Shown here in pieces: positions 13,598 through 38,599 of a stretch of DNA of 51,215 bases (positions are counted from its first letter, which is position 1; the number at the start of each line of letters is the position of its first letter). Below the pieces are notes generated by a model. The model did not search any database, was not told where the DNA came from, and worked only from the letters and a program-made list of their open reading frames with translations. A program made the translations under genes and the position numbers. The stretch comes from a virus. The stretch is taken from IMG/VR virus record IMGVR_UViG_3300044712_001916, positions 1-51,215 of that record; one strand, given 5' to 3'.

Positions 13598-13906
13598 ATG
13601 ACTACATACGGGAATTTTCAGGGTAGGGTGAAAACAGGAACGGCTATCCCATCTACTGCAGTTGAAGGTGATGAGTATTTTGATACGACATTAAAACAGT
13701 GGCGGGTATATAATGGTTCAGAGTGGCATTACGCTCAATTTACTACAAGTTCAACATCTACTACGACATCTACGAGTACATCTACGAGTACTTCAACTAC
13801 AACGACAACAACTTCTACAACAACGACAACAACTTCTACTTCTACCTCTACTAGTACATCAACGTCAACATCTAGTAGTACATCAACAACAACTACAACG
13901 GGGTAA
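13598..13906 (+). CDS. Virion protein with mucin-like Ser/Thr tail (102 aa)
   Basis: Residues 1-47 form a small domain (MTTYGNFQGRVKTGTAIPST, then GDEYFDTTLKQWRVYNGSEW). From about residue 48 to the end it is almost only Ser and Thr. The ATG at 13598, preceded by AAGGAAA, is preferred over a GTG at 13547 lying in a hairpin loop. It is related to the next two genes by the Y-x-N/D-T...W-x-Y-x-G-S-x-W pattern, likely a beta-hairpin module of a head fibre or decoration. Function is not known. Confidence 0.75.
   Translation: MTTYGNFQGRVKTGTAIPSTAVEGDEYFDTTLKQWRVYNGSEWHYAQFTTSSTSTTTSTSTSTSTSTTTTTTSTTTTTTSTSTSTSTSTSTSSSTSTTTTTG
13740..13903 (+). repeat. Ser/Thr-coding low-complexity tract
   Basis: The tract consists of ACN and TCN codons, with a few AGT, coding a C-terminal Ser/Thr tail. 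Synonymous third bases vary freely, which suggests selection for the amino acids rather than a young DNA repeat. Confidence 0.9.
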
Positions 13907-13911
13907 AAATT

Positions 13912-14109
13912 ATGAGTCAAGATTTATTATCAACTGAAACACATGCGACTGATTACAGAGGTTCATTGTTAACCGGAACAACAAATCCGGCTGATGGAGA
14001 TCAAATTCAAAATATTGAGGCAGGTCAAATGTATTACAATACGACGAGTAATATTTTATATATTTATGATGGAAGTGCTTGGTTTGGAAAATTGACGGTG
14101 GCGATGTAA
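13912..14109 (+). CDS. Small virion protein, paralogue without tail (65 aa)
   Basis: Reads MSQDLLSTETHATDYRGSLL, then GQMYYNTTSNILYIYDGSAW and FGKLTVAM. It shares the YYNT...YxYDGSAW hairpin pattern with its two neighbours but lacks the Ser/Thr tail. It starts 5 nt after the previous stop. Confidence 0.7.
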   Translation: MSQDLLSTETHATDYRGSLLTGTTNPADGDQIQNIEAGQMYYNTTSNILYIYDGSAWFGKLTVAM

Positions 14110-14110
14110 T

Positions 14111-14422
14111 ATGACTAAATTTTCATCTTTTGCAGGTAAAATTAAACAGGCGACTGCTGATCCTATAGATCCGCAGACAGGTGAGGAATACTACAATCAA
14201 AATACTGATAAGTGGCGCAGATATACAGGGAGTGGATGGCGGGAGATTTCGTTTATTAATGTAACGACAACTTCAACGACGACTACAACAAGTACGTCAA
14301 CGTCAACTTCTACTTCAACGACGACGACGACTACAAGTACTTCTACCTCAACGACGACGACAACTACCTCTACTACGAGTACAACAACGAGTACGAGTAC
14401 ATCTACGACTACAACTGCTTAA
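14111..14422 (+). CDS. Virion protein with mucin-like Ser/Thr tail (103 aa)
   Basis: The N-terminal domain (MTKFSSFAGKIKQATADPID, GEEYYNQNTDKWRRYTGSGW, REISF) is paralogous to the genes at 13598 and 13912. Residues 52-103 are almost only Ser/Thr and end in Ala. Probably a capsid surface protein whose tail could carry O-linked sugars or form a flexible brush; both are inference. Confidence 0.75.
   Translation: MTKFSSFAGKIKQATADPIDPQTGEEYYNQNTDKWRRYTGSGWREISFINVTTTSTTTTTSTSTSTSTSTTTTTTSTSTSTTTTTTSTTSTTTSTSTSTTTTA
14263..14420 (+). repeat. Ser/Thr-coding low-complexity tract
   Basis: ACN/TCN codon tract coding the C-terminal tail of the protein at 14111-14422, with mixed synonymous codons. Confidence 0.9.
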
Positions 14423-14430
14423 AGGAGACT

Positions 14431-15201
14431 ATGAAAGAATGTCAAATTTGTCATAAGAAAATGCCAGCTCATATTTTAATGCTGCACATGAAGAAATGGC
14501 ATACTGAATCTGTTCCAGTAGAAGAGGCTAAACCTGAGGCGGTAGTGGATACGGTTACGAATCAAAGTGTTGTTCAGCCACTTAGGTTTGATAAAGTAAT
14601 TATTTTTTGTCCGAAGTTTTTTATGTCGCCTGATCGGGAAGCTGAATTGCTTCGCAAGGGAATGCCAGTTGATAAAAATCCTACTCCAAACGTCATTCGG
14701 GATATGTTTCAAAAAATGTGGTGGTCAATTAAACGCAATGAAATGAAGGTTTTTGAGAAAAATGTGGGTGAATATTTATTAAAAAAGTTTGGCTTTTTAA
14801 TTAGAGTAGAGCCACATGAGATTGACAAATACCGCAAGATTCAAGCAGATAAAGAATATAAATGTCATGTGTGTAAAATGGGAGAGTTTGAAACTGATAC
14901 GTTAATTGCGTATCAACAGCACATGAAAAGTCATAACATGAGTCCAGAAGCGATGGCGATGATTGAAGAAATGGAGGCAGCTAAACCTGATGGTGAGGTC
15001 TATTCAACTCAGGAAGCAATTGCAGGTAAGCCTCGACTAGATGAGTACGCTGGCGCTTTAACCGGAGGTACCTATGAGCGGCCAATGGTGGATCAGGATG
15101 GGGTGGAATGGGTAGGTCCGGGATCAGTGAAACGTCAAGGTATGAAGTTACGGCCTAAGTTTGGTGCGCCGGGAATGTTTAGAGGAGGAGTAAATGAATA
15201 A
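14431..15201 (+). CDS. Protein with two C2H2-type zinc fingers (256 aa)
   Basis: The first finger is at residues 4-24 (CQICHKKMPAHILMLHMKKW then H), the second near residues 147-170 (CHVCKMGEFETDTLIAYQQH then MKSH). Between them lies a helical domain (MWWSIKRNEMKVFEKNVGEY); the tail is Gly-rich (ALTGGTYERPMV). A good AAAGGAG site precedes it. C2H2 fingers are rare in phage structural clusters; the partner could be DNA or another virion protein. Function unknown. Confidence 0.75.
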   Translation: MKECQICHKKMPAHILMLHMKKWHTESVPVEEAKPEAVVDTVTNQSVVQPLRFDKVIIFCPKFFMSPDREAELLRKGMPVDKNPTPNVIRDMFQKMWWSIKRNEMKVFEKNVGEYLLKKFGFLIRVEPHEIDKYRKIQADKEYKCHVCKMGEFETDTLIAYQQHMKSHNMSPEAMAMIEEMEAAKPDGEVYSTQEAIAGKPRLDEYAGALTGGTYERPMVDQDGVEWVGPGSVKRQGMKLRPKFGAPGMFRGGVNE

Positions 15202-15499
15202 ATTTGCAAAACCTAAACGAGTCACTGCCAATGGATATGTAGTTCAACGGGCGTGTGAAGTGGCAGCCATTACCGCTTTTCCGGGAGCTTCTGACTTAAT
15301 AATAAAATTACGTGATGGTGGAGCAGCAGGTACAATTAAGTGGGAATTTGAAGCTGATAGTAGTACTAGTTCTGCTACTCAAAGTTTCCCTTTTCCACTC
15401 TATTTTGGAACTGATTTGTATGTGGATATGGCGGGTGGAGATGCAAATAAGTCTGTATCTGTAGCATTAGTTGAAGGTACAAGTGCAACTGATATTTAA
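15194..15499 (+). CDS. Small beta-rich head-module protein (101 aa)
   Basis: Reads MNKFAKPKRVTANGYVVQRA, then KLRDGGAAGTIKWEFEADSS and YFGTDLYVDMAGGDANKSVS. All-beta by eye, similar in style to short phage decoration or fibre proteins. It overlaps the previous gene by 8 nt with an AGGAGGAG site. It is the last head-module gene before the glycan cassette. Confidence 0.7.
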   Translation: MNKFAKPKRVTANGYVVQRACEVAAITAFPGASDLIIKLRDGGAAGTIKWEFEADSSTSSATQSFPFPLYFGTDLYVDMAGGDANKSVSVALVEGTSATDI

Positions 15500-15502
15500 T
15501 GC

Positions 15503-15530: not shown

Positions 15531-15550
15531 GTTATAAGTAATAAACCTGT

Positions 15551-16885
15551 ATGAAAAATAAAGGTAAAAAAATTCTGATCTTTACCCAGTTTAGTAATGC
15601 TGATGAAGCATACTCATTAAATAGAGTAGTTCAGGATCAGATCCAGATGTTTGTCACCAATGGATATAAAGTTGTCGTTACCGTCGCTGAAGGTTTTACG
15701 CCGGTTGGCTGGTACGCTCATTCTGGGGTGGAATTGCGGGGAATGACCACAGTTCCATGCCACAATGAGGTCAAAAAAGATCCCACTTTTGATGATGATG
15801 TAGATGCTTTAACTGAGGATATTAAAGCTATTGTCTCTGATGTTGATTTTGTGATTTCTCATGACTTAATTTATCAACCATCTGCTCTTAAACATAATGT
15901 AGCATGTCGTAAAGTTGCTAAAGATAGGCCAGAATTGAAATGGGCGCATTGGATTCATTCTGCTACTTCTCCTTACACTTTGGGGAGGTTACGAGGTGTA
16001 TTTACTGATGAGTATGCCAGGATTATTAGTGAACCATTTCCTAATTCTTATTATGTTTTTTTCAATCACTATTCAATTCCTCGAATTGCTGAAAATTTTA
16101 AGGTGGATCCAGAGGTGGTTAAGATTGTTCACCATCCCTCAGATGTATATAAGTTACTGCGGATTAAGGATAAGTTGGTAATTAAGTTGGCAGAAAAGAA
16201 GAAGTTACTTGAAGCGGATGCGGTAGCAATTTATCCGGTTAGACTAGATCGGGGTAAACAAGTACAGATGGTAATTAAGACACTGGCGATGCTCAAAGAC
16301 AGAGGATTTAATGTCAGAGTGATTGTAGTTGATTTCCATTCTACTGGTGGGGATAAAGTCACCTATCGGGATGAACTTAAGCAGCTTGGGATTGATTGGG
16401 GGTTAAATGCCCAAGAATTAACTTTTACTTCAGAGTTTGATCCGGAGTGGACTGTACAGATACCGCATGAAAGTACAGCAGAGTTATTTGCATTATCTAA
16501 TGTATTCATTCAACCTTCTGTATCTGAATCATACTCTTTAACGACTCAAGAATTTATAATTATCAGTCGTGGAGTCTTAGTGCTAAATCAGGATTTCCCC
16601 CCATTTAGAGATATTTTCGGGCCGGATGCAATTTACCGGAAGTTTAGTTCAAATATTGATGTCATGAGTGGGTTAGATGGTAATACGACTACTCAATATG
16701 GTCCAAATGATGCTTCTCCTGAAGAGCGAGTCAGTTATGAAAAAGATTATCATCGGGAAACGGCAGGTATGATTGCTAATCAATTACGCCATACGCAAGC
16801 ATATGCTCGGTGGATAAAGATTAAACGAGAACGAAATTTACAATATATATTTACTCATGAGTTAGAGCCTCTTATATATGGATAA
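15551..16885 (+). CDS. GT4-type glycosyltransferase, GT-B fold (444 aa)
   Basis: The N-terminal Rossmann-like half starts KKILIFTQFSNADEAYSLNR. The C-terminal donor-binding half shows YPVRLDRGKQVQMVIKTLAM and SVSESYSLTTQEFIIISRGV, the GT4 region with the E-x7-E-like motif. It probably transfers a hexose from a nucleotide donor to the growing glycan; donor and acceptor unknown. First gene of the cassette, overlapping the next by 8 nt. Confidence 0.85.
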   Translation: MKNKGKKILIFTQFSNADEAYSLNRVVQDQIQMFVTNGYKVVVTVAEGFTPVGWYAHSGVELRGMTTVPCHNEVKKDPTFDDDVDALTEDIKAIVSDVDFVISHDLIYQPSALKHNVACRKVAKDRPELKWAHWIHSATSPYTLGRLRGVFTDEYARIISEPFPNSYYVFFNHYSIPRIAENFKVDPEVVKIVHHPSDVYKLLRIKDKLVIKLAEKKKLLEADAVAIYPVRLDRGKQVQMVIKTLAMLKDRGFNVRVIVVDFHSTGGDKVTYRDELKQLGIDWGLNAQELTFTSEFDPEWTVQIPHESTAELFALSNVFIQPSVSESYSLTTQEFIIISRGVLVLNQDFPPFRDIFGPDAIYRKFSSNIDVMSGLDGNTTTQYGPNDASPEERVSYEKDYHRETAGMIANQLRHTQAYARWIKIKRERNLQYIFTHELEPLIYG

Positions 16886-17648
16886 TGCGGTAGTATATGG
16901 ATGGGGAACAGTAGGTAAAGCAACTGCTAGTGTCTTTAATATTCATTCTTACTTTAGTAAAAAGGAAGCTACTATTACTCTTAAGGAAGCTGCCTATAAA
17001 CGCTATCATTTTATTTGTCTACCTACTCCTACAATTAAGAGTGACTGTTTCAGAGAAGATATTTTTGAATTAATCCGTCAATTAGAAGAATTGCCCCATG
17101 ATCAAAACGTCTATATTTTAAGATCCACGGTTATTCCTGGGACGGCTAAATATATTATGAGTCAATTAAATATTCATTCAGTAATTTCAAATCCAGAGTT
17201 TTTATCTGAAGATACGGCTACTGAGGATAGTATTCATCCCGATATTGTGGTTATTGGTGGAGAACAGAAAAACTACATTGATGATGTGGTTGGAATTTAT
17301 GAGGGACATATTAAGGGAGCTAAAATATTTACAACTGATACAGTAACAGCAGAAATGGCTAAATATGCTATAAACACATTTTATGCAACTAAGGTAATAT
17401 TTGCGAATCAGATATTTGATATAGCACAGCGGATTACAGCTAATTACGAAACAATAAAACAGATCATGTATAGCCGAAAATGGATTGGTAAAAATCATTT
17501 GGATATTTGGCATAAGGGTGGAAGAGGAGCAGGTGGGAAGTGTTTGCGAAAAGATTTAGATGCTTTTGAAAATTATTCTAAGAGTAAGTTGTTAGAAACA
17601 GTAAAACTGTTAAATGAGGATTATTTGAGCCGTTATCCAAAAAAATGA
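16878..17648 (+). CDS. Minimal UDP-glucose/GDP-mannose dehydrogenase (256 aa)
   Basis: NAD-dependent oxidation of a nucleotide sugar to a uronic acid is expected. Motifs: Rossmann loop GWGTVGKAT (residues 8-16), LRSTVIPGTA (81-90), SNPEFLSEDTA (104-114), EMAKYAINTFYATKVIFANQ (159-178, Lys162), and GAGGKCLRKD with catalytic Cys222 and Lys225. Cellular enzymes are about 400-450 aa; here the first domain is shortened and the C-terminal nucleotide-sugar domain is missing. Catalytic residues remain, so it may be a compact active form. Confidence 0.85.
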   Translation: MDNAVVYGWGTVGKATASVFNIHSYFSKKEATITLKEAAYKRYHFICLPTPTIKSDCFREDIFELIRQLEELPHDQNVYILRSTVIPGTAKYIMSQLNIHSVISNPEFLSEDTATEDSIHPDIVVIGGEQKNYIDDVVGIYEGHIKGAKIFTTDTVTAEMAKYAINTFYATKVIFANQIFDIAQRITANYETIKQIMYSRKWIGKNHLDIWHKGGRGAGGKCLRKDLDAFENYSKSKLLETVKLLNEDYLSRYPKK

Positions 17649-18772
17649 TTACAGAAGGATTAACTAGTATTGTTATTGGTATTAGAAATACTGATTATCC
17701 AGTTTGTCATTATACGGGAAACTGTATTGGTTCAGTGAAATATTTTACCCATAAAGAGAAAACTCCCTACGAGATTATAGTAGTTGATAATGGATCAACA
17801 GTTGAATTGGGTGGTTGGAAATGGGACCAAGTAGTAGACAAATATTATAAGCATGATGCCGGTATGAGTTGTGCGTGGGCGTGGAATAAAGGAATTGAGA
17901 TGGCTTCAGGTGAATATATTGCGGTATTGTCTAATGACGTTCAGATATTTGAGTACTGGTTAGAGGATTTGATTGATGCTACTAAATATGTGGATATTGT
18001 TAATGCTTGTCCGATGTACAGTCAACCATGGGGTAGAGCAGTTGAGGCTAAGGAATTAAGAAATAAATGGTTGATGGATGATCCCGATAAATACTTATAT
18101 CCATTTCGTGATTTCTCGCTCTTTTTAGGAAAACGAGAAGTATTTGATAAGGTGGGTACATTTGATGAAAATTATGAGTTTGGGTGGGGAGAAGATATTG
18201 ACTACTGTTACCGTTTACAAGCTCTTGGAATGATGAATAAGGCCAATAAACGAGTAAATACATATCATGTTGGGATGGCAACTGGACAGACCCTTATGAT
18301 GCAAAATGCAGGAGACATCAATGGAGCGATGACTAGGAATCGAGAATACACTCGTAAAAAACACAATTTAGATAAGTTTGGGATTCCACATCCTCAAGAT
18401 GAGGTAGTCGAGCATGAAAAAGATCCTATTATTACTTTGTCTACAAAAATAAAGCGCAGAGGGGATAAAACAATCAGAACGAATGAAACTGGAGATAAGG
18501 TATATCTCGTGACTGGAAAAGTAGCTCAGTGGGTGAAGAATTTGGAAACACTCAATGCACTGGGTTGGACATTAGGCCAAGAAATTCTGGTTAGCCTAGA
18601 TGAATTTAGAGATTTTGAGATGGGGGAGCCATTGGGATTGAATGATGTAGAAAAAGGGGTTGGTGTAGTCCAGTCAGAAGTAGTAGTAGAAGCAACTAAC
18701 TATCCGGAAAAAGTTGTAGTTGAGGACACTTCACATAAAAGTCCGGTTTTACGATATAGAAAATCTGTATGA
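17645..18772 (+). CDS. GT2 glycosyltransferase with extra C-terminal domain (375 aa)
   Basis: The N-terminal GT-A fold shows IIVVDNGST and IAVLSNDVQI (DXD equivalent), then NYEFGWGEDIDYCYRLQALG (acceptor or catalytic ED region). The last about 110 residues form a separate domain with GDKVYLVTGKVAQWVKNLET and LGWTLGQEILVSLDEFRDFE, which resembles small VYLI..GK..W...LGW beta domains of surface proteins. That attachment is unusual; it may bind a partner or glycan. Overlaps both neighbours by 4 nt. Confidence 0.85.
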   Translation: MITEGLTSIVIGIRNTDYPVCHYTGNCIGSVKYFTHKEKTPYEIIVVDNGSTVELGGWKWDQVVDKYYKHDAGMSCAWAWNKGIEMASGEYIAVLSNDVQIFEYWLEDLIDATKYVDIVNACPMYSQPWGRAVEAKELRNKWLMDDPDKYLYPFRDFSLFLGKREVFDKVGTFDENYEFGWGEDIDYCYRLQALGMMNKANKRVNTYHVGMATGQTLMMQNAGDINGAMTRNREYTRKKHNLDKFGIPHPQDEVVEHEKDPIITLSTKIKRRGDKTIRTNETGDKVYLVTGKVAQWVKNLETLNALGWTLGQEILVSLDEFRDFEMGEPLGLNDVEKGVGVVQSEVVVEATNYPEKVVVEDTSHKSPVLRYRKSV

Positions 18773-19566
18773 AGTATTCAATTATTACTCCGGTTCATGT
18801 ATACACTGAGCAGCGAAAAACTCAACTTGATCGAGCGGTTAAAAGTGTACTAAATCAATCAGTTACCGATTACGAGCATATTGTGATTAATGATGGTTCT
18901 ACGATAGAGGTCAAGACTCCTAATTCAGTTAAAGTGGTGAATCAGCCTCATTTGGAACGGATTGTAGCTTATTACAATGGCATGAAGGAAGCTATAGGAG
19001 ATTGGTTTGTATTATTAGATAGCGACGATGAATTGATTAGTTATTACCTGGAAGTGTGTGATGCGATGATGGTTAAATATCCGGATAGTAAACTATTTAA
19101 CTTCGGGTCCATTCACATTACGAAAGAGTATAAAGCTCATCCTCGGGATGCGTTCAAGCCCGCTAAATTTGATGTAGGGCATGAAGTGTTTGGTGGAGGC
19201 ACAATCGTTAACGGGACTTTTATTTTCCACAGAAGTGTTTATGAGGACTTAGGCGGGTATCCTGAGCCGGAGGTGCATAACGTGGACTGTAGTGAAATTA
19301 ACTATCCCGATAATGAAGGTAAACTAACCAGATCGTTAGGCATGAGCAGTCCGTGGGATTTTGCTGCCTATTATCAGGTAAAGTACCCGGAAATCAGGCC
19401 GTATTTTACCCACGATGCAGAGCCGAATAAGGTGATTCGGGAGTTGGGGAATCCCTGGGGAAATGATTATGCGCTCTTTTACCAGTATACCCGCAAGTAT
19501 TATTCTGAGCCGATAGATGCTCATTTATATATCGTTCATCCGGGAAAGTTAGGACACAGCTTATGA
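18769..19566 (+). CDS. GT2 glycosyltransferase (265 aa)
   Basis: Starts YSIITPVHVYTEQRKTQLDR, with IVINDGST and the DXD-type WFVLLDSDDELI, then a long C-terminal acceptor region with GGTIVNGTFIFHRSVYEDLG. Classic family 2 inverting transferase; sugar specificity cannot be read. The gene becomes noticeably GC-richer in its second half. Confidence 0.85.
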   Translation: MKYSIITPVHVYTEQRKTQLDRAVKSVLNQSVTDYEHIVINDGSTIEVKTPNSVKVVNQPHLERIVAYYNGMKEAIGDWFVLLDSDDELISYYLEVCDAMMVKYPDSKLFNFGSIHITKEYKAHPRDAFKPAKFDVGHEVFGGGTIVNGTFIFHRSVYEDLGGYPEPEVHNVDCSEINYPDNEGKLTRSLGMSSPWDFAAYYQVKYPEIRPYFTHDAEPNKVIRELGNPWGNDYALFYQYTRKYYSEPIDAHLYIVHPGKLGHSL

Positions 19567-20303
19567 AGCCAATAGATATTTTTATAACTACGTTTCTTAG
19601 GCAAGCTCATACTGAGCAAACAATCAGGTATCTAAATGAACGGACAAAATATCCTTACCGTTTATTTGTGATAGACAATGGGGGGAATGAGGAGGTGTTA
19701 GATGAAGCGATTAAACAGAATCTGGTTTTTCTGGTGGTACGCCCTTCCTCTAATGTTGGCATTCATGCTGCTTGGAATTTGGCCCTGGCTATGGCTGAAT
19801 CTGATTATTTTATTACTAGCGACAATGATATTCTTGTACCTGAGTTAGAACCAGATTGGTTAGAACAGATGATGACAATTATGCGGACACGGGAGGTTGA
19901 CCGCTTGGCAGCTTTAGCCCTACAGCCACATATCTTTATCGGAACTAATCCAACTGCATATCCTTCAGATGGCATAGTTTTGGATATGCCGATTGTTGGC
20001 GCTGTAATGCGGATGATGAATCGTCAAGCAGTTATTAACGCGGGAGGATGGGAGCATGTGATTAGAACGAGTCGTAATCATGAGGAAAAGACAATTTGTT
20101 CTCGATTGCAAACCTTAGGATATAAAGTTGGGTATACAGCGAAAATGAAGGCATTTCATTTGTTTGCCGGAGAAAATACTGATCCATGGGGCTATCCAGC
20201 CTCAATGAGTCCTGAAGATCACGGGCATCATCCAGTATCTCCTCCCGTTAATGTATTTGGAAATATTGCAGAGTATAACCAAAAAACGTGGGAGCATATA
20301 TGA
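19563..20303 (+). CDS. GT2 glycosyltransferase (246 aa)
   Basis: Reads DIFITTFLRQAHTEQTIRYL, LFVIDNGGNEE, SNVGIHAAWNLALAMAESDY and the DXD-type ITSDNDILVP, then GAVMRMMNRQAVINAGGWEH and EEKTICSRLQTLGYKVGYTA. Family 2; cytoplasmic with no membrane anchor. Its stop overlaps the ATG of the SDR gene (ATGA). Confidence 0.85.
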   Translation: MKPIDIFITTFLRQAHTEQTIRYLNERTKYPYRLFVIDNGGNEEVLDEAIKQNLVFLVVRPSSNVGIHAAWNLALAMAESDYFITSDNDILVPELEPDWLEQMMTIMRTREVDRLAALALQPHIFIGTNPTAYPSDGIVLDMPIVGAVMRMMNRQAVINAGGWEHVIRTSRNHEEKTICSRLQTLGYKVGYTAKMKAFHLFAGENTDPWGYPASMSPEDHGHHPVSPPVNVFGNIAEYNQKTWEHI

Positions 20304-21079
20304 GGATTTTGGTTACGGGTGGATCTGGATTTATAGGTAACTATTTACGACCTATTTTGAAAGAACACGAAGTATTTTCAGTAGATATTGAATCGGGTGT
20401 TGATATTTTTGATAGTTTGTTTGAAAAGTTAGTTAAGAGTCACGATGTGATTATTCATTTGGCAGCATTAACAAATGTCGAAGATTCAAAAATTAATCCT
20501 AAGCCTTACTACATGACTAATGTACTTGGAACGGCAAGAGTGACTTATTTATGTGCGAAGTATGGTAAGAAGTTAATTTATCCATCAACATTACACGTTT
20601 TTGATCCATATTCATCTCCGTATGCTGACAGTAAGTTACAAGCAGAACAAATTGTTAAATGTGTTAATAAATTTATTCCCGTAGTTATTTTACGGCTCTA
20701 CAACGTATTTGGAAAAGGTATGAATAATAATAGTGGATCAATCATTAATCTGTTTCTTACATCTAAAGAGGTAGGAGTGTATGGAGATGGAAGTGTAACT
20801 CGTGATTTTATTCATGTTAAAGATGTTGCCGCAATTATGAAAGATGCCTTGAAATCGAAATGGGATGGTGCGTGTGTTGAGGTCGGAACTGGTAAGGGAA
20901 CAAGTATTAAGGAGCTAGCTATCTTATTTTCTTATTATCGGCAAGTTCCATTAGTATATTTTAAGAATAAAGAACAACTACGGTGGCCAATTGCCAATAC
21001 TAAATTATTAAAAAAATTATACAAAGAAAAATTAAAGACTAATATCCATAAAGATATTGAGGAACTATGCCGAAATTAA
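20300..21079 (+). CDS. NAD-dependent sugar epimerase/dehydratase, extended SDR (259 aa)
   Basis: GGSGFIGNYL at residues 7-16 binds NAD, IIHLAALTNV follows, and the catalytic pair is Tyr108 and Lys112 in SPYADSKLQAE, with Ser/Thr at 96-97. RDFIHVKDVA is the usual downstream motif. It probably epimerises or dehydrates a nucleotide sugar feeding the cassette. The ATG at 20300 is preferred because it gives the SDR start and the 4-nt overlap. Confidence 0.85.
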   Translation: MRILVTGGSGFIGNYLRPILKEHEVFSVDIESGVDIFDSLFEKLVKSHDVIIHLAALTNVEDSKINPKPYYMTNVLGTARVTYLCAKYGKKLIYPSTLHVFDPYSSPYADSKLQAEQIVKCVNKFIPVVILRLYNVFGKGMNNNSGSIINLFLTSKEVGVYGDGSVTRDFIHVKDVAAIMKDALKSKWDGACVEVGTGKGTSIKELAILFSYYRQVPLVYFKNKEQLRWPIANTKLLKKLYKEKLKTNIHKDIEELCRN

Positions 21080-30153: not shown

Positions 30154-32340
30154 ATGGCACGTTTATGGTCCTCCGGCTTTGAGTCAAACAGTCTTACTAA
30201 TAATGTCGACATAACTTCAAGTGCTACCAGTGGCGGAGCCGCTTTAGCCATCTCTACTACTAACGTCCGCAGCGGTACATACGCACTACGGGCCAGTAAT
30301 GCCGGAGCTAATGGGTATGCTATAGCTGTCTATAGATTTGCTGCCGTGGATCAGAGTGCGGCTGTTTATTTACGGGCATACATTTACATTGTCGATATTC
30401 CGGATGCCACCGGAACTATCCTGGCTTTTCAAACTATTTCCGATTCAACGATTGCCAAGATCCGCCTGCAGACTGACGGGACACTTATCCTAACTGACAG
30501 TGCTGTTACTATTGGCAGTCCCAGTTCAGCCCTGTCTTTAAATACCTGGTACAGGATAGAACTGCTCTGTCAGCACGACACGGGTAATGCCAAGCAGATA
30601 CTTGAAGGAAGGGTAAATGGAACCGCATTTGCCTCAACTACTACCAGCTCTAACCCGTCTGATTTCGGGAAAGTGCTAGTCGGGCAGTTTAGTCAGGTAA
30701 GCTCCTATGATTTGTATTTTGACGATATTGCGGTTAATGACACCACCGGATCATTCCAGACTTTCTATCCGGGATCAGGGGGAATTATTCACCTGCTACC
30801 TAGTGGTGTCGGGGACAATAATAACTGGACCAGAGGCGGTTTAGATTCCGGAGCTAACTGGAGTCAGACTGATGAGATAGCTCCGAATGACTCGATTGAC
30901 TACATTGTTAGCCCGGCATCAGGAACGGGGATTGATGATTACGCCCTTGCCGATACACCTGCTGCAGTTAATGCTAATGACATTATCAGACTGGTACAGG
31001 TGGGAGTCAGGTTTCAGGCTTCCAGCACTGCAGATGGGGATGATTTTGTCCTGCGGGTCAAAGCCTCAGCTAGTGGGACAGTAGAGGAAAGTTCAACAAT
31101 TGCACCAGCTTCTTCTACCTTTGCTACTAATACCATAGCTACCCCCTTTAACTATGCCTTAACTTTATACGACTTACCGGGAACTTCGGCAATTGACTGG
31201 ACAAAGGCTACCTTAGATACGGCTCAGATCGGTGTCCGGCAACTGACTGCTGATGTAGTTGATAGTAATGTTTCAACGCTCTGGTTGCTAGTTGAGTACA
31301 CCACGGCGGATCAAACGACCACTTCAACCACTACGACCACCTCAACCTCAACGACAACTACGACTACTTCTACGTCAAGTTCATCCTCATCATCTTCGTC
31401 AACGTCGACAACACTCTCGATCACGACCTCAACGTCAACTTCAACGACCTCTTCAACGTCGACAACGACGACGACTACCTCAACCTCAACGACCAGTTCT
31501 ACCTCAACGACGACTACGACGACCTCAACGTCAACAACGTCAACGACCACCTCTACCTCAATGACGACCACCTCAACTTCGATTACAACGACGAGTACGT
31601 CTACGTCTACCTCATCCTCAACTTCTACCACGACGACTATTTACTCAGCCTGTTCTAATATGTTGCTTAACCCCTCATTTGAAGGAAATACGAATTATTG
31701 GAGCCTCGATCCTGACTTTACCCGAACGAGTGAGGATCCGTATGACGGGCTGTATTCGATTAAACAGGTATCTATTGGTAATTTTGCTAACTTCTCGACA
31801 ACTAACGATCTTAATTCCGGGATTCCGGTGAGTGCCAGTACGCTGTATACGTTAACTTTCTACTATAAAATGACTATTACCTCCGGATTTGCGCCGATTG
31901 TACTGGTGCGGGATGGCGGACCGTTTGGCGGGAACGTAGTCGGTTCAGCTACCTTAGTAGATGCAGCCACCTGGACCCGGCAGACAATTGCCATCACTAC
32001 TGATGTTGGTTCAGCTAAACTCTGGATCCGGATCTTTAACAATAACGGAGCGATCACTGCTTACTACGATGCGTTCCAACTGGAACTGGGATCATCTGCT
32101 ACTGCATATTGTCCGATCTTCAGCACTACCACCTCAACGTCAACCACGACTTCTACCTCAACCACGACCACGACGACTTCAACGACGACGACCACAACGT
32201 CAACCTCAACGACATCAACCACAACATCTACGTCCACCACGACTATTACTACCTCAACCAGTACGACTACCTCTACTTCAACGACAACGACAGTCGAGTA
32301 TTCGTTCCCGATATTTGTGGATATAATCGAACAGACATAA
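30154..32340 (+). CDS. Tail spike-like protein with lectin and CBM-like domains (728 aa)
   Basis: Residues 1-210: concanavalin-like jelly roll (LWSSGFESNSLTNNVDITSS, YLRAYIYIVDIPDATGTILA, YDLYFDDIAVND). Residues 215-385: a second beta domain. Residues 386-495: Ser/Thr linker. Residues about 500-650: carbohydrate-binding CBM_4_9-like domain (NMLLNPSFEGNTNYWSLDPD, YYDAFQLELG). Then a second Ser/Thr linker and a short C-terminal strand (EYSFPIFVDIIEQT). Probably a glycan-binding tail or head fibre; beginning of the tail operon. Confidence 0.8.
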   Translation: MARLWSSGFESNSLTNNVDITSSATSGGAALAISTTNVRSGTYALRASNAGANGYAIAVYRFAAVDQSAAVYLRAYIYIVDIPDATGTILAFQTISDSTIAKIRLQTDGTLILTDSAVTIGSPSSALSLNTWYRIELLCQHDTGNAKQILEGRVNGTAFASTTTSSNPSDFGKVLVGQFSQVSSYDLYFDDIAVNDTTGSFQTFYPGSGGIIHLLPSGVGDNNNWTRGGLDSGANWSQTDEIAPNDSIDYIVSPASGTGIDDYALADTPAAVNANDIIRLVQVGVRFQASSTADGDDFVLRVKASASGTVEESSTIAPASSTFATNTIATPFNYALTLYDLPGTSAIDWTKATLDTAQIGVRQLTADVVDSNVSTLWLLVEYTTADQTTTSTTTTTSTSTTTTTTSTSSSSSSSSSTSTTLSITTSTSTSTTSSTSTTTTTTSTSTTSSTSTTTTTTSTSTTSTTTSTSMTTTSTSITTTSTSTSTSSSTSTTTTIYSACSNMLLNPSFEGNTNYWSLDPDFTRTSEDPYDGLYSIKQVSIGNFANFSTTNDLNSGIPVSASTLYTLTFYYKMTITSGFAPIVLVRDGGPFGGNVVGSATLVDAATWTRQTIAITTDVGSAKLWIRIFNNNGAITAYYDAFQLELGSSATAYCPIFSTTTSTSTTTSTSTTTTTTSTTTTTTSTSTTSTTTSTSTTTITTSTSTTTSTSTTTTVEYSFPIFVDIIEQT
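31306..31640 (+). repeat. Ser/Thr-coding linker tract
   Basis: About 110 codons, nearly all ACN or TCN with some AGY, joining two beta domains. Synonymous bases are shuffled. Confidence 0.9.
32128..32295 (+). repeat. Ser/Thr-coding linker tract
   Basis: About 55 codons of the second linker of the protein at 30154-32340, followed by a short hydrophobic C-terminal strand. Confidence 0.9.
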
Positions 32341-32341: not shown

Positions 32342-34660
32342 ATGGCTATTGCTTTTGTAAATAGGAATCAAGGAGGAGGAAGTGCAAGTTCAACCACAAT
32401 TGCTACTCCTGCTACTTCTCATACTTCTGGAAATTTACTTGTAGTACTTTTAACATTTGATGCTAGTGGTGGAAACTTTAGTTCGATAGCTGATACAGCT
32501 AACAACACTTGGCTTCAGGCTGGAACTGAACTTTTATCAGGAGCGGCAAATAATAAGTTTAGAATTTATTATGCTTATAATTGTACTGGTAATGCCAGTA
32601 ATATTGTTACAGTTACTTTATCTGCGGGTACTGTATATAGGTCAATTGTAGTATTGCAATTTAGTGGAGTAGAAACTGCTTCTGATCCTATAAGTGACAA
32701 TAAAACAGGTACAGGTACAGGTACATCTATTGCTTCTGCTTCATTAACAGTAACCGCTTCTCAAGAGGTAATTTGTGCAATCATGATTGGGTTTCATGAT
32801 AGTATTGTTGCTGGAAGTGGATATAGTTTAGTTAATTTTGCTGTTACTGGAGATACTCAAAAATATTTTGCTGATGAGTATCATATTGTAACTGCGAGTG
32901 AAGCTGCAACAGCATCACAAACAAGTGGAACATGGGATATTAAAGCTGCTTCATTTAAAGTAGCAGCGGATACTACCACCTCAACCTCAACGACGACCAC
33001 CACGACTTCGACTTCAACGACGACAACTACCACGTCTACCTCTACCACGACGACGACGACTTCTACGTCTACTTCTACCACGACTACCACCACGTCTACG
33101 TCTACCTCAACGACGACAACAACCACCTCAACATCCACGTCAACTACCACAACCACTACCTCTACGTCGACAACGACGACGACCACTTCAACTTCCACGT
33201 CGACTACCACTACGACGACCTCAACTTCGAGTTCGACAACGACTACAACCACGTCCACCTCAACAACTACTACGACCACCTCCACGTCCACCTCGACAAC
33301 TACGACCACGACATCCACATCGAGTTCTACTTCAACCACCACGACGACCACTTCTACGTCTAGCTCAACCTCGACTACGACTACCACCACGTCTACGTCT
33401 ACCTCAACGACGACCACAACGACATCTACCAGCACCTCTACCACCACCACGACCACATCCACGTCGACAACGACCACGACGACTTCCACGTCCACGTCAA
33501 CCACGACGACGACTACCTCAACCAGCACCTCAACGACTACTACCACCACGTCTACGTCTACGTCTACTTCAACGACAACTACGACCACCTCTACGTCCAC
33601 CTCAACGACGACCACAACGACATCAACAACGACCACAACGACTTCAACGTCGAGTACTACCAGTACCACGACTACCATTTCTCCCTGTTCCAACAGCCAT
33701 TCTCTTAGTCTGACGAGGGCTTCTTCTCAGTTTGCGGGAATTACTGATGCGGCTCAGAACGGTACATTAGATCTCAACAGTGATTTCACGATTGAAGCGT
33801 GGGTTAAGTTCACGACTACTCCGGCCACGGCTGCCGGAGATATGGCGATTGTGACCAAATACTTAACTGGTCAGGTTTCCTACTATTTTACGTCTGTATC
33901 CGGAAATGGTTTGCAGCTTGTATGTTCAGCCGATGGAACAACCGAAACACTGAACGTGTCAGTTGGTTGGACTCCTTCGGCAGCTACGTGGTATCACCTG
34001 GCAGTATCATTGAAGTTAGGAGCCGGAGGCACAGCGGAGGCTAAATTCTATGTCGATGGAGTCCAACAGAGTACCACTCAAACCGGATCAATTACCGCAA
34101 TTCATAATGGGACGGCAGCCTTTAGAGTTGGTAATACTGACGATGAAACACTGCATTTAAATGGATTGGTTGATGATGTTCGAGTCTGGACTGTAGTTCG
34201 CACAGTTACCGAAATTGCCAATAACCGGACCCGTGAGCTAGCCGGAAATGAGGCTAACCTAGTCGGCTACTGGCAACTGGACAACAACTATGTTGACCGG
34301 ACCAGTAACGGAAATACCTTAACGGGTGGAAATACTCCTACTTTCTCGACTGATGTTGCGTTTTGTGATAATACAACAACCTCAACGTCAACGAGTACGT
34401 CAACCAGCACCTCAACGACTACCTCAACTTCAACGACCACTACCACGACCTCCACGTCTACGACAACGACCACGACCTCCACGTCGACCACTACCACGAC
34501 AACGACTACCTCCACTTCAACGACTTCGACCACGACTTCGACCACGACGACGACGACTTCGACCACGACGACGACGACCTCGACTACCACTAGCACTTCG
34601 ACAAGTACAAGTACTACAATGGTAATTAATCTCCGCTTTAGTGTGGAAAAGGTGAAATAA
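32342..34660 (+). CDS. Tail spike-like protein with long Ser/Thr linker and LamG domain (772 aa)
   Basis: Residues 1-210: beta domain (AIAFVNRNQGGGSASSTTIA, FRIYYAYNCTGNASNIVTVT). Residues about 212-447: about 235 residues almost only Ser/Thr in an 11-residue-like rhythm (TSTSTTTTTTS). Residues about 450-675: LamG/concanavalin domain (NSDFTIEAWVKFTTTPATAA, TWYHLAVSLKLG, FRVGNTDDETLHLNGLVDDV, VGYWQLDNNY). Then a second Ser/Thr stretch and a terminal strand (NLRFSVEKVK). Starts 1 nt after the previous stop. Likely binds host or environmental glycans. Confidence 0.8.
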   Translation: MAIAFVNRNQGGGSASSTTIATPATSHTSGNLLVVLLTFDASGGNFSSIADTANNTWLQAGTELLSGAANNKFRIYYAYNCTGNASNIVTVTLSAGTVYRSIVVLQFSGVETASDPISDNKTGTGTGTSIASASLTVTASQEVICAIMIGFHDSIVAGSGYSLVNFAVTGDTQKYFADEYHIVTASEAATASQTSGTWDIKAASFKVAADTTTSTSTTTTTTSTSTTTTTTSTSTTTTTTSTSTSTTTTTTSTSTSTTTTTTSTSTSTTTTTTSTSTTTTTTSTSTSTTTTTTSTSSSTTTTTTSTSTTTTTTSTSTSTTTTTTSTSSSTSTTTTTTSTSSSTSTTTTTTSTSTSTTTTTTSTSTSTTTTTTSTSTTTTTTSTSTSTTTTTTSTSTSTTTTTTSTSTSTSTTTTTTSTSTSTTTTTTSTTTTTTSTSSTTSTTTTISPCSNSHSLSLTRASSQFAGITDAAQNGTLDLNSDFTIEAWVKFTTTPATAAGDMAIVTKYLTGQVSYYFTSVSGNGLQLVCSADGTTETLNVSVGWTPSAATWYHLAVSLKLGAGGTAEAKFYVDGVQQSTTQTGSITAIHNGTAAFRVGNTDDETLHLNGLVDDVRVWTVVRTVTEIANNRTRELAGNEANLVGYWQLDNNYVDRTSNGNTLTGGNTPTFSTDVAFCDNTTTSTSTSTSTSTSTTTSTSTTTTTTSTSTTTTTTSTSTTTTTTTTSTSTTSTTTSTTTTTTSTTTTTTSTTTSTSTSTSTTMVINLRFSVEKVK
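32973..33680 (+). repeat. 700-bp Ser/Thr-coding tract
   Basis: The longest such tract of the genome, about 235 codons, ACN/TCN with few exceptions. The amino acid pattern repeats while the third bases do not, arguing for selection on a mucin-like protein segment. The long antisense open frame of Val/Glu/Asp is a by-product. Confidence 0.95.
34372..34620 (+). repeat. Ser/Thr-coding linker tract
   Basis: About 80 codons before the last 13 residues of the protein at 32342-34660. Confidence 0.9.
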
Positions 34661-34661
34661 T

Positions 34662-36980
34662 ATGTCCTTAATTTACCGCAGTATCGACATCATGAAGCAG
34701 ACTAAGGATAGTCTGGATAATCCGATTAGTTCTGCTTTCTCCAATAATGAGATTGATTCCATTTGCCGGGACTATCCGACTGTTAATTTAATCTCGATTG
34801 CCATCCCCATGAATACGAATGCTCAGGCACTCGCAGTTCGGGGATCTAACTTCGGAATTGAGCCAGCTACGTACGCTGCTCAGTTTATGAACCGGATTCA
34901 TACCAATAACCGTTGTGTTTTGTTCCGGGGAACTGACTGTGCGTTTGAAGGAATCTATAATTTCCCGAAAGTTAATTACCGGAACGGCAGTAAATATACC
35001 TACTATGGAGAAGATATTACTGACAATTTTAGCAGCGGATTTACCCGTAATCATGGTTACTCGTTAACGAGCGCGGCAGGTAATTTAAGCTCTCAGTATT
35101 TGACTTCCCATCAATCCGGAAACACCTGGACGATCAGTGGTAATCACTTAGTTGGTCCGGCTAATAATGGCTGGCGTAGAACCTGTCTGTGGAATTTCTC
35201 TTATTTTCAGAGTGTGACCATGACGGCTCAGGTCAGGGCGGGTGGCAACTCACAGATCATAGTCAGAGCTACTACTGACACTAACTTTCCCGGCTACGGA
35301 TTGCAGATGCGGGGCAGCAATACGCTCCGGATTGAACGTCCCGGAATTGCTAATTTAGGGGAAGTAACAAATAAAACCTTTGTCAGTGGTACCTATTACT
35401 GGCTGAAGTTACAGGCAATTGGGACAGCAATTAAGGGCAAGTCCTGGGCAGTAGGTGATAGTGAACCGGGAACCTGGGATATAGAAATAACCAATTCTGA
35501 TTATTCAACCGGGTATTGTGGATTTTCCGGTGAATCTGATGGTCCGGTTTTTGGCAACATGACTATTACTCCCTCTATTGACACTGACACCTGGATTTAC
35601 CGGGCGGCAACGTGGGTTAATTCTAACATTTCTCTATTTGCTACTAATGATCTGGTCGTGCCATTTGCCGAAGCGGACATGCATAACTTAATGGGAAATG
35701 TCGGTAACTACAATCAATTCTTTTTAGATTTAAGCTATGTGCTGGAACGAATTGGTAGGGAAAATGGCAGAAATATTCTTGCCCGTCACTTCTCCCATTT
35801 GTGGAGTTACGCGATGCAGGGTCAACGTAACGCTCAGTACAGTCAGTTTGGAGTGGCAACATACGATCATTACGGGACCTCAATTGGACTCAATAAACGC
35901 TTTGTATCGTTTAATAGTCAAGCTACTATAAGTGCCACTAATACGTATGTTGTGCCAACTTCAATTACAGAAGGGGCAACTGCCAAATTTAATTTTACTC
36001 CGGAAAAACCCTCCTACAATACTGATATAGATTTATATGTTGTCGATAAGGGTACGGGCAACTGGACAATGACTATTCATGATTCAAATAATAATAAAGT
36101 CCAGATGCCTGATCAGCACAACTTCAGCAATAAAACGACCACCGGAGTAGTCACAATTGCCAATGCTTCTTTGACGAGTGCAGCGGTCAATACCTTTTCA
36201 ATTGATTGGGATAATCCTGTACCTGATGTAGGATACCATTTACATTTAACTTCGACAGTCGGAGATGGAACGGTCAAAGTAGCTACAGCTAATGATTTAA
36301 ATACTTTATATGCTACCGGATACAAGTCGAATGCGAGTCCTAAAGCGATGGAAATTGACATCCGGAAAACGTATGTCCAGACCGGAAATGTGCCTCAGTT
36401 TATAGAAGAATGGGGAGATTTTTGGTCGACTGATCCGGGTCTTTCAAATCCGGTCCGGACGCAGGCAGAACATACTGCTTACTTGGACGAAATGTATGGT
36501 GTTTTCCAGTATTTAGTAAATGATGGGATTTTAGTGGGTTTTAATTATTGGGACGCGGTTGGCGGCCGGGAGTCAGTCATGTATGATGCCGATCAGACTG
36601 CCGGGTATGACTTCCAAATGCTCTATTCCGGAGTTAGTTTACAAACTTTCTTTGCAGCCAATAGCGGAACGACCACCTCAACGAGTACTACAACTACCAC
36701 GACTTCCACCTCAAGCTCAACCAGTTCCAGTTCCAGCACCACCACGACATTAGCATTTACAACGTCTACTTCGATGACTACAACCTCAACTTCAACCACT
36801 TCAACGACAACCTCAACTACCACTACTACCACTTCTACTTCATCCTCAACGACGACCTCTACGACTACTACGCTGGTTCCGCAGGACACTACCACGTCAA
36901 CTTCAACCTCAAGCACCACGACTACTTCAACGACCACCACGATGATCAATCCGGAGTTGACCTTTAAGGTAGATACCTGA
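34662..36980 (+). CDS. Tail glycosidase-like protein with inserted lectin domain (772 aa)
   Basis: Looks like a TIM-barrel glycoside hydrolase interrupted by a jelly-roll insert. The N-terminal part has PTVNLISIAIPMNTNAQALA; residues about 120-305 form the inserted beta domain; the barrel resumes with DTWIYRAATWVNSN and VPFAEADMHN. The C-terminal part has VPQFIEEWGDFWSTD and DGILVGFNYWDAVGGRESVM, with Glu residues placed like the catalytic acids of clan GH-A. A second beta domain lies at about 420-540. Ends with Ser/Thr linkers and a strand (NPELTFKVDT). A depolymerase role is inferred. Confidence 0.7.
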   Translation: MSLIYRSIDIMKQTKDSLDNPISSAFSNNEIDSICRDYPTVNLISIAIPMNTNAQALAVRGSNFGIEPATYAAQFMNRIHTNNRCVLFRGTDCAFEGIYNFPKVNYRNGSKYTYYGEDITDNFSSGFTRNHGYSLTSAAGNLSSQYLTSHQSGNTWTISGNHLVGPANNGWRRTCLWNFSYFQSVTMTAQVRAGGNSQIIVRATTDTNFPGYGLQMRGSNTLRIERPGIANLGEVTNKTFVSGTYYWLKLQAIGTAIKGKSWAVGDSEPGTWDIEITNSDYSTGYCGFSGESDGPVFGNMTITPSIDTDTWIYRAATWVNSNISLFATNDLVVPFAEADMHNLMGNVGNYNQFFLDLSYVLERIGRENGRNILARHFSHLWSYAMQGQRNAQYSQFGVATYDHYGTSIGLNKRFVSFNSQATISATNTYVVPTSITEGATAKFNFTPEKPSYNTDIDLYVVDKGTGNWTMTIHDSNNNKVQMPDQHNFSNKTTTGVVTIANASLTSAAVNTFSIDWDNPVPDVGYHLHLTSTVGDGTVKVATANDLNTLYATGYKSNASPKAMEIDIRKTYVQTGNVPQFIEEWGDFWSTDPGLSNPVRTQAEHTAYLDEMYGVFQYLVNDGILVGFNYWDAVGGRESVMYDADQTAGYDFQMLYSGVSLQTFFAANSGTTTSTSTTTTTTSTSSSTSSSSSTTTTLAFTTSTSMTTTSTSTTSTTTSTTTTTTSTSSSTTTSTTTTLVPQDTTTSTSTSSTTTTSTTTTMINPELTFKVDT
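36664..36945 (+). repeat. Ser/Thr-coding linker tract
   Basis: About 94 codons, Ser/Thr with a few interruptions (LAFTTSTSM, LVPQDTT), before a 10-residue terminal strand. Confidence 0.85.
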
Positions 36981-36982
36981 AA

Positions 36983-37011
36983 TTGCTATTTAAGTAGGTT
37001 TGGATTATTAT
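36983..37011 (+). promoter_or_regulatory. Leaderless promoter of adaptor gene
   Basis: TTGCTA (36983-36988), 17-bp spacer, TATTAT (37006-37011), then 7 nt to the ATG at 37019, so the message would begin at the start codon. Confidence 0.65.
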
Positions 37012-37018
37012 TTTATAT

Positions 37019-38314
37019 ATGCGCAGAATTACCATCCCCAATCCCGATTTAAGCCACGAGGAGAAAACGTACCTCAATGCTGATTACACCAGCGGAACTT
37101 CCCTGACGGTAATTAATGCAATTGGCTTTGCGGGAGGAGAAGTTAATTTCTTTGCGGTTGTTGGTGAAATTGGCGAGGACAAAACTGAAGGCAAGAAAGT
37201 ATCCAGCTTAACCGGCAGCACCGTTATCAATCTCTCAACAGCCCTCAATTTCTCCCACAATAAAGCAACTCCGGTCTACCGATCTCCGTGGGATCAGATT
37301 CAAATCCACAAGAAGTCAGCGGGTGGTGTCTGGGCGGTGATGACCGATTCCGATATCCAGTGGGACAAGAATGAAACGATTTATATTGATGATGATGGAG
37401 GCCAGACTGACTCATACCGTTTCCGCTTTGCTAATACTATCTCAGCCGTCTACAGCGAGTATTCACCGACAGTTACGGGAGCCGGATTTACCCGGAGTCA
37501 GGTAGGATTTATGTTGGCCCGGGTCCGCAAGAATATCAACGATACGGAGCGTAAGATTGTATCCGATGAAGAAATTATCCAATTCTTAGATACCGCTCAG
37601 GATCTGATTAAGGGAGTCAGGCAGAATTGGTGGTTTCTCCTAGTGGATACGTACAGGGCGGGAAATGGCATTACGATCGTAGCCGATACTGATGTCTATT
37701 CACTTGCCAAATATACGAATTTTAACTTTCTGGAAACGGTCCGCTACAACTTCAATAATGGAACTGATAATGTCCTCCGGCATATCAGATACCTTGATGC
37801 CTTAACCTTTGATGACCGGATCCGGGACCTAAACCGCAAGCATGATGACCAAATTGAAGTCTATAAGCTGCTCCCGCCTGATACCAATAGTGCCAATGGC
37901 TATATTCAAGTTGATCCTATTCCTGATAATGCCAACGGGACACTTTTTCCCAACTACTATAAGGTAATGGACGTTTTAGAGAATGTATCTTCAACCACCT
38001 TAATTCCGATCCCGTCAGTTTTGGAACAATATGCCATCAGTCAGAGCGAACGGATCAAAGGCAACGAAACGAAGGCGGAACTGTACGAAAACCTTTTCTT
38101 TGGGAGTCCGGACCAACGCCGGGGCGAACAACGCCGACCTACCGGAATAGAGCTGCTGGAGCGGATGCAGAAGGCACAGATGTTTCCGCAGGGCCAGCCC
38201 CGGAACTTGAAGAATTGGCAAGGCCGCAAGGCTTTGCAGAATTTAATGGAGTCTAGTACGGGTGCGTCTGATGACAGTCTACGGGAAGATTATTTTGACT
38301 ACCCACGGAGATAA
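37019..38314 (+). CDS. Head-tail adaptor-like protein with N-terminal Ig-like domain (431 aa)
   Basis: Residues 1-145 are beta-rich (YLNADYTSGTSLTVINAIGF, WAVMTDSDIQWDKNETIYID). Residues 160-380 are helical with a short beta hairpin (VRKNINDTERKIVSDEEIIQ, FLDTAQDLIKGVRQNWWFLL), as in phage connector or tail-accessory adaptors of the P22 gp4 / gp6 type, which sit under the portal. A charged C-terminus follows. Assignment is by fold-like pattern and by its place before the propeller protein. Confidence 0.7.
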   Translation: MRRITIPNPDLSHEEKTYLNADYTSGTSLTVINAIGFAGGEVNFFAVVGEIGEDKTEGKKVSSLTGSTVINLSTALNFSHNKATPVYRSPWDQIQIHKKSAGGVWAVMTDSDIQWDKNETIYIDDDGGQTDSYRFRFANTISAVYSEYSPTVTGAGFTRSQVGFMLARVRKNINDTERKIVSDEEIIQFLDTAQDLIKGVRQNWWFLLVDTYRAGNGITIVADTDVYSLAKYTNFNFLETVRYNFNNGTDNVLRHIRYLDALTFDDRIRDLNRKHDDQIEVYKLLPPDTNSANGYIQVDPIPDNANGTLFPNYYKVMDVLENVSSTTLIPIPSVLEQYAISQSERIKGNETKAELYENLFFGSPDQRRGEQRRPTGIELLERMQKAQMFPQGQPRNLKNWQGRKALQNLMESSTGASDDSLREDYFDYPRR

Positions 38315-38320
38315 TATGCT

Positions 38321-38599
38321 ATGGCTAATGAAGGACAACAGGTACATAAAGTTGAGGATTTTTCAGGTGGCACGCAAACCACGACTACCCGCTTCCTACG
38401 GAAAGGAAATGAGCTGGAAGGCTCACTCAACGCCCGGTTTAAAAATATTGGCGGTGTAGGAATCAGGGACGGCTACTCCCAATCCGGCAGCAATCTAACC
38501 AGTACCACCACTACGTCCAGTTCTACCTCAACTACCACGACCACGACATCCACTTCCACGTCAAGTTCCACGTCAACATCAACATCAACAACAGCATAA
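38321..38599 (+). CDS. N-terminal fragment of propeller protein with Ser/Thr tail (92 aa)
   Basis: Residues 1-60 (VHKVEDFSGGTQTTTTRFLR, GSLNARFKNIGGVGIRDGYS) look like the usual N-terminus of phage tail beta-propeller proteins (F-GG...NAR...G.GIR.GY). Instead of continuing, it changes to a 30-residue Ser/Thr tail and stops. The rest of the propeller follows 3 nt later with its own ATG. So one ancestral gene seems to be divided in two, with a mucin-like tail at the break. Confidence 0.7.
   Translation: MANEGQQVHKVEDFSGGTQTTTTRFLRKGNELEGSLNARFKNIGGVGIRDGYSQSGSNLTSTTTTSSSTSTTTTTTSTSTSSSTSTSTSTTA
38497..38596 (+). repeat. Ser/Thr-coding tail tract
   Basis: About 33 codons at the 3' end of the gene at 38321-38599, directly before the stop and the next ATG. 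Confidence 0.9.

Follow-up and report, generated by a model that had tools for sequence, protein, structure and literature searches.

A candidate cytosolic O-glycosylation system of uncultivated phages: a GT4-type glycosyltransferase genetically linked to serine/threonine tracts

Virus record IMGVR_UViG_3300044712_001916, the 51,215 bases of which make up the stretch of DNA analyzed here (the 'window'), encodes six proteins with long serine/threonine (Ser/Thr) tracts and, between its head and tail genes, a cassette of sugar enzymes that opens with a glycosyltransferase (GT) of the GT4 type at 15551–16885. Relatives of this enzyme are tied to long tracts in other phages too, including phages whose capsid and portal genes appear unrelated, and on these genetic grounds the proposal of an earlier note on this DNA—that the phage may glycosylate its own virion—gains support. 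We consider it likely that the phage runs its own cytosolic O-glycosylation, with the 15551 enzyme priming the Ser/Thr tracts of its own structural proteins. With less assurance, we lean toward a broader reading: that uncultivated phages of lineages with unrelated capsids widely share a dedicated O-glycosylation system, absent from GenBank phage records, in which a divergent GT4 family primes pure Ser/Thr tails and linkers on virion proteins, and a modular cassette varies the glycan.

The tracts are real coding features, far above chance. There are eight of them, 32–235 residues long, in six proteins, all six found where the earlier note had placed them, and the longest (32972–33676, 235 residues) is 100% Ser/Thr. 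Only one of 74 random phage loci (621 kb) contains an open reading frame (ORF) that reaches the tract threshold. Within the tracts, entropies at codon positions 1, 2 and 3 are 0.97, 0.54 and 1.99 bits, and Tandem Repeats Finder reports degenerate arrays only. Tandem duplication or slippage as sole cause is ruled out, because third positions are fully shuffled; what this argument leaves over is a lineage-specific T6 and (ST)n pattern. The order of the two residues is not random: threonine runs peak at exactly six, with 37 observed versus 6.5 expected on shuffling. Such runs are common in the window and in G002, a relative of 49,965 bp with the same gene arrangement, and runs of four are common in other phages (L284, L278) of what is called below the near clade. 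At the end of the small tails stands TTTT followed by one small residue, whereas the large tail proteins close with a partly hydrophobic peptide of 10–15 residues.

Selection acts on the amino acids, as the earlier note had supposed from the shuffled synonymous codons. When the window is compared with G002, 77 of the 78 residues in the two alignable tracts are still Ser or Thr, versus 74% for Ser/Thr elsewhere, and tract third positions are as diverged as those in other places; in the tail of the 38321 protein, 32 of 32 Ser/Thr residues are retained. The tracts might, of course, be nothing but flexible hydrophilic linkers or tails, the GT cassette serving some other role and both being accessory features of certain phages. 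Those of the 30154 and 32342 proteins do connect folded domains, and short linkers of the Thr/Ser or T-x-x-P kind occur in many phages that have no 15551-type GT (40 of 50 tract contigs, below). Linkers have no need to be pure Ser/Thr, however, yet almost every aligned residue keeps its class, and this, with the linkage described next, makes such an explanation unlikely in our view.

The linkage was sought in both directions, a comparison that the earlier note had proposed. IMG/VR was scanned with a degenerate DNA pattern for T6-S-T-S-T, which gave 90 loci with a true Ser/Thr tract, and 50 tract contigs of 15–120 kb were compared with 50 controls: 33 random contigs, nine with the pattern in a non-Ser/Thr frame, and eight capsid relatives without tracts. 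GT2 genes are present in 21 of the tract contigs and six of the controls (p 0.0013), and homologues of the 15551 enzyme in 10 and none, respectively (p 0.0012); when the 33 random contigs alone are used, the p-values become 0.004 and 0.005. The 15551 query recovers known carriers, which served as positive control. Presence of the enzyme follows tract length: seven of 10 contigs with a tract score of at least 60 have it, versus three of 40 with shorter tracts (p 0.0001). Two controls, G099 and G104, seem to carry the same 335-residue GT2. In G099 its gene comes directly after one whose product ends in TTTTTTSTSTSSTSEE (L364, G099:C1:19500-21500), so the control rate for GT2 is, if anything, too high; no 15551-type enzyme is present there, and L364 is possibly a second, independent pairing of a GT with a tract.

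For the reciprocal comparison, loci were picked solely for a relative of the 15551 enzyme by means of two sub-clade alignments, 26 loci in a near clade and 64 in a far clade. All 26 near-clade loci and 48 of the 64 far-clade loci contain a tract, versus the one in 74 random loci, and when the loci are trimmed to 7.2 kb around the GT, 23 and 34 still do. The nearest tract ORF lies on the same strand as the GT in 71 of the 74 tract-positive loci and no more than 2 kb from it in 55; in 14 far-clade loci the two are adjacent (<150 bp). Loci around an unrelated phage GT2 have no tract (0 of 8). Neither the capsid nor the portal of the window has a match in any of the 64 far-clade loci, and only four show a weak match to TerL, although these loci are partial genomes and a distant capsid or portal match elsewhere in the genome is possible. 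The enzyme–tract pair thus appears from these comparisons to have been kept across unrelated phages, rather than simply inherited with one lineage. On the tree of the GT family, the tract label is found on all major branches, and most contigs of both clades also carry GT2 genes.

That the enzyme follows tract length, that it lies so close to tracts in unrelated phages, and that generic GT2 loci have none, are difficult to explain if the tracts are mere linkers. Several observations weigh against the self-glycosylation reading, nevertheless. Sixteen of the 64 far-clade loci have no tract within ~10 kb, although one of these, L352, has T/V/A/P tracts and some others end early. Forty of the 50 tract contigs, mostly those with short linkers, lack a 15551 homologue, and so not every Ser/Thr tract implies an enzyme of this type. 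The outcome that the earlier note had named as refuting, tracts equally common in relatives without any GT genes, did not emerge: GT genes accompany long tracts far more often than they occur in controls, and the capsid relatives without tracts gave no GT2 or GT4 match. Short Thr/Ser linkers without the 15551 enzyme do exist in other phages. The sequences are related, and ~10 changes on the GT tree are enough to account for the tract label, so the p-values overstate independence. Tract contigs, moreover, were the source of the seed relatives; this introduces a bias among the nearest homologues, and less of one in the breadth of the far clade. And a GT4 fold, by itself, does not show that the acceptor is a protein.

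That fold comes from structure prediction. The AlphaFold model of the 15551 enzyme (mean predicted local distance difference test score, pLDDT, 87) has the double Rossmann architecture of GT-B enzymes and aligns with BshA-type GT4 over ~332 residues with a VIA-align Z of 16.9; the root mean square deviation of 17 in this alignment is probably due to the two domains being hinged differently. Identity to known GT4-clan GT-B enzymes is ~9–15% over the aligned core, and searches of Protein Data Bank sequences gave nothing but chance matches with the single sequence, and weak matches to BshA with a profile. Across 12 divergent family members, the EX7E motif (E326, E334), R234 and K236 are invariant, so that fold, motif and conserved R/K are all as in BshA, MshA, PimA and TarM. 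A Pfam scan of the 12 found only GT1/GT4-type models and two weak others, and eight of them—the window's own member not included—match phrog_2170 'glycosyltransferase'. Judged by sequence and modeled structure, the phage group is a divergent GT4-clan family. We tried to read function from fold alone and abandoned the attempt: matches to GT4 enzymes are of a generic kind, and among the matches listed no O-glycosyltransferase acting on proteins is prominent, which is no proof of absence.

A tblastn search of 50,697 GenBank phage records with two members of the 15551 family gave no match at E 1e-3, and only two matches were found in the bacterial and archaeal genomes of 84,980 species. One of these is in a contig of a metagenome-assembled genome, labeled Neomarinimicrobiota, that looks viral: it encodes two tracts of great length as well as a protein related to the 32342 tail protein. 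Such scarcity in bacteria bears on whether host O-glycosylation machinery, rather than the phage cassette, might glycosylate the tracts. Some tract phages have neither a GT2 nor the GT4 enzyme; but this phage carries a full soluble cassette, with its first GT among the most conserved genes, and we give the idea very little credence.

The cassette (15551–30045, plus strand) comprises exactly 18 ORFs, the number given in the earlier note, and Pfam agrees with the ten GTs counted there, several of the Pfam matches being weak. They consist of one GT4-like enzyme, two other GT-B and seven GT2 or GT2-like; the remaining genes encode four enzymes of nucleotide-sugar metabolism, a pair of methyltransferases, one HNH endonuclease and a protein of unknown function. 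First comes the GT4-clan enzyme, the candidate priming O-glycosyltransferase (15551–16885; Glycos_transf_1, E 2e-5), followed by a truncated UDP-glucose/GDP-mannose dehydrogenase (16878–17648) with the UDPG_MGDP_dh_N and central domains only. This nucleotide-sugar dehydrogenase lacks the C-terminal domain, yet is found in 20 of the 26 near-clade loci, and so may have an unusual substrate. Next are three GT2 enzymes, starting at 17645, 18769 and 19563 (17645–20303; PF00535, E 5e-13 to 2e-12); a short NAD-dependent epimerase/dehydratase (20288–21079; PF01370, E 8e-32), which is one of two short epimerase/reductases of the short-chain dehydrogenase/reductase type; another GT2 (21067–21747; PF00535, E 5.6e-11); a DegT/DnrJ-type sugar aminotransferase (21744–22925; PF01041, E 2.4e-88); and a further GT2 (22909–23709; PF00535, E 4.4e-6). 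The stretch 23702–26191 encodes a methyltransferase (start 23702), the HNH endonuclease (24220), a GT-B (24546) and the second methyltransferase (25541), matching PF13578, PF13392, PF13524 and PF08241 in that order. The last stretch, 26188–30045, holds, by Pfam, a GT-B (26188), an RmlD-like reductase (27113), a GT2-like protein (27769), the unknown protein (28466) and a second GT2-like protein (29113), the matches of the two GT2-like proteins being below the Pfam cut-off.

No cassette protein has a membrane-like segment, the highest 19-residue hydropathy being 1.54, and no Pfam family for a lipid-linked priming phosphoglycosyltransferase, flippase, polymerase or membrane Gtr protein was found in it. 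Nothing in the cassette therefore points to export or to a lipid-linked intermediate step, and the earlier note's remark that flippase, polymerase and membrane anchor are missing holds. In gene types, the GTs, DegT enzyme and epimerases are like clusters for O-antigen or capsule, and modification of the host serotype by temperate phages is known (PMC12619734). On a rival reading, the cassette would remodel a surface polysaccharide of the host during infection, leading to serotype conversion or superinfection exclusion, and the tail tracts would be a separate matter. The membrane proteins just named were not found here, however; the cassette is embedded among the virion genes, and in unrelated phages, too, the GT4 gene adjoins tract genes, so we regard remodeling as highly improbable. 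Slightly less probable still is that the cassette glycosylates phage DNA against restriction and has nothing to do with the tracts. Glucosylation and hypermodification of DNA are known activities of phage GTs (cited in PMC12619734), but among the genes scanned, many of which belong to no family, Pfam and PHROGs revealed no base-modifying or nucleotide-hydroxymethylating enzyme. Ten GTs with an aminotransferase and a dehydrogenase look, instead, like oligosaccharide synthesis, and modification of DNA would leave the linkage to Ser/Thr tracts unexplained.

Comparison with relatives suggests how self-glycosylation might be organized. Between the window and G002—the only relative recovered by a search with 38603–40090—the capsid protein (90% identity) and the 15551 GT (85%) are the top two, and identities of other cassette genes descend to 28–34%. 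Conservation of the one GT and divergence of the rest are what a constant first step with a changing glycan would give, as reported for GtfA/GtfB and the accessory GTs of serine-rich repeat protein (SRRP) systems (PMC6973325). Two more distant relatives, G025 and G058 (~30–53% identity), retain the order capsid, small Ser/Thr-tailed proteins, GT4 enzyme, cassette. Their tract-bearing tail proteins, too, lie next to genes of the adaptor and of the 38603 type, and both phages keep tracts along with GT4 and GT2 genes.

We suppose that the 15551 enzyme would act first, transferring a sugar from a nucleotide sugar directly onto Ser or Thr residues of the tracts in the cytosol. The nine other GTs, of the GT2 and GT-B types, would lengthen this first sugar into a variable glycan, and the dehydrogenase, epimerase/reductases, aminotransferase and methyltransferases would make or cap unusual sugars. 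Glycosylation would take place before or during assembly, and the glycoproteins would then be built into virions, giving head-associated fibers or decoration proteins, and tail proteins, with dense, mucin-like glycan tails or linkers. The glycan and its linkage we infer, like the purpose of such a coat, be it shielding or host attachment as the earlier note supposed.

The acceptors proposed are structural-type proteins. The window has an exact 124-base repeat at both ends, and the genome is therefore probably complete, circular or terminally redundant; its TerL, portal and capsid module, SU10-type head–tail adaptor and amidase endolysin are those of a tailed phage. The tracts of the six proteins that the earlier note had called virion proteins stand; the virion label is our reading of gene position and domain resemblance. 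All lie on the plus strand. Directly before the tract genes is the major capsid protein gene (12606–13520; phrog_371 major head protein, E 5.9e-24). Two small proteins with C-terminal Ser/Thr tails follow, at 13598–13906 (tract 13742–13900, 53 residues; an alternative start, GTG 13547, is possible) and 14111–14422 (tract 14264–14416, 51 residues), and between them lies a paralogue without a tract (13912–14109; phrog_21412 tail fiber, E 2e-5), which in alignments shares their domain. The 13598 protein has homologues with tails in the same place across near-clade loci. A sequence search with the common 45-residue domain found no solved homologue; the N-terminal domain of the 14111 protein was modeled with pLDDT 85, and fold matches, all weak, were to phage fiber and decoration proteins, tailspikes and collagen trimerization domains. 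Because these small proteins follow the capsid gene directly, come as two or three paralogues, and have such matches, one may reasonably picture head fibers that each bear three glycan tails. Between them and the cassette are two genes without family match, at 14431–15201 (conserved in relatives, 76% identical in G002) and 15194–15499 (58% identical in G002).

Beyond the cassette come three tail-type proteins. The first (30154–32340; tracts 31315–31638, 108 residues, and 32122–32292, 57 residues) is 32–36% identical at its N-terminus to minor tail proteins of Streptomyces phages. The second (32342–34660) has the 235-residue linker and another tract at 34373–34618 (82 residues), with a Laminin_G_3 domain between the two (PF13385, E 4.6e-21), and the third (34662–36980) has a Ser/Thr region at 36669–36941 (91 residues) before its short C-terminal peptide. 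The SU10-type adaptor (37019–38314; PF24175, E 1.2e-7) marks the tail/neck module, and after it a small protein at 38321–38599 ends in a Ser/Thr tail (38498–38593, 32 residues) that is retained in G002, G025 and G058 at body identities of 33–66%. PHROGs gave almost no matches to ten far-clade tract proteins, so a virion role for those is conjectural.

Other features of these genomes deserve mention. Four HNH endonucleases are scattered through the window (10192–10635, 24220–24561, 40551–40991 and 43122–43562); their scatter, and the absence from that place in G002 of the copy at 24220–24561 inside the cassette, suggest homing endonucleases. The terminase of G002 (G002:C1:23318-25540, minus strand) has an in-frame insert of ~240 residues, absent from the window phage, that begins with Cys, ends in Asn before Cys, and contains a YLAGIIDGEGSF motif; from these features it is probably an intein. 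A 12-bp tandem repeat (GAATCCACGGCA) runs across both ends of the window, 51044–51215 joined to 1–440; read on the minus strand, it gives a small protein four-residue 'AVDSAVRSAVYS' repeats at its C-terminus. A DUF6745 protein is encoded at 50446–51207 (minus strand), in a region of small genes.

Glycosylation of phage virions is itself already known, from mycobacteriophages (PMC12363180, PMC12619734). The closest parallel in logic, however, is the SRRP/accessory-Sec system of Gram-positive bacteria, with its GtfA/GtfB and variable GTs (PMC6973325, PMC7948813). There, too, long Ser/Thr-rich acceptors are encoded beside their own GTs, and soluble GTs act intracellularly and in sequence, a conserved primer followed by variable extenders, an arrangement that we propose here from the genes. 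The phage acceptors differ in being structural-type proteins; the candidate primer has no detectable relation in sequence to the SRRP enzymes, DUF1975 is matched by none of the 12 family members scanned, no GtfB-like partner was recognized, and no SecA2 or SecY2 is present among the genes scanned. For a phage protein that assembles in the cytoplasm, an accessory Sec would be unnecessary. With neither DUF1975 nor accessory Sec, the phage system is not a member of the SRRP group; it would work like one by analogy, not homology.

In mycobacteriophages Che8, Corndog and Myrna, phage GTs glycosylate the phages' own structural proteins (Freeman et al. 2023, as cited in PMC12363180 and PMC12619734), and the glycans are at the C-termini of capsid and tail-tube subunits, according to the same two citing papers. 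Phage-encoded GTs and structural acceptors, in our case proposed ones, are common to both; the window phage differs in its ten-GT cassette, and in having pure Ser/Thr tails that belong to separate proteins and not to the capsid protein itself. No match to the 15551 family was found in GenBank phages, which speaks against homology with the GTs of these mycobacteriophages, although this is a set in which the three phages with Che8 gp110, Corndog gp38 and the Myrna GT were not checked by name. Chlorovirus PBCV-1 glycosylates its capsid autonomously with mostly soluble, cytoplasmic GTs, building a core with variable decorations (PMC5408694); virus-encoded soluble GTs and, as proposed here, a core plus a variable part are shared features, but PBCV-1 is a eukaryotic algal virus, its glycans are N-linked, and its GT genes are scattered rather than gathered in one cassette. 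Searches of the literature turned up no account of phages that combine Ser/Thr tracts with a GT cassette, the key mycobacteriophage paper being represented by papers that cite it.

One GT4 family beside pure Ser/Thr tracts is a signature that picks out the same strategy in ~90 loci of uncultivated phages, many with unrelated capsids. It also names an enzyme to test, so that what began as a guess from one genome can be put as a direct question to biochemistry. Should the self-glycosylation reading be true, the enzyme could offer a simple way to glycosylate Ser/Thr peptides in the cytosol in one step, and dense mucin-like coats would affect the adsorption of these phages, the stability of their particles, and their recognition by bacteria or by animal immune systems.

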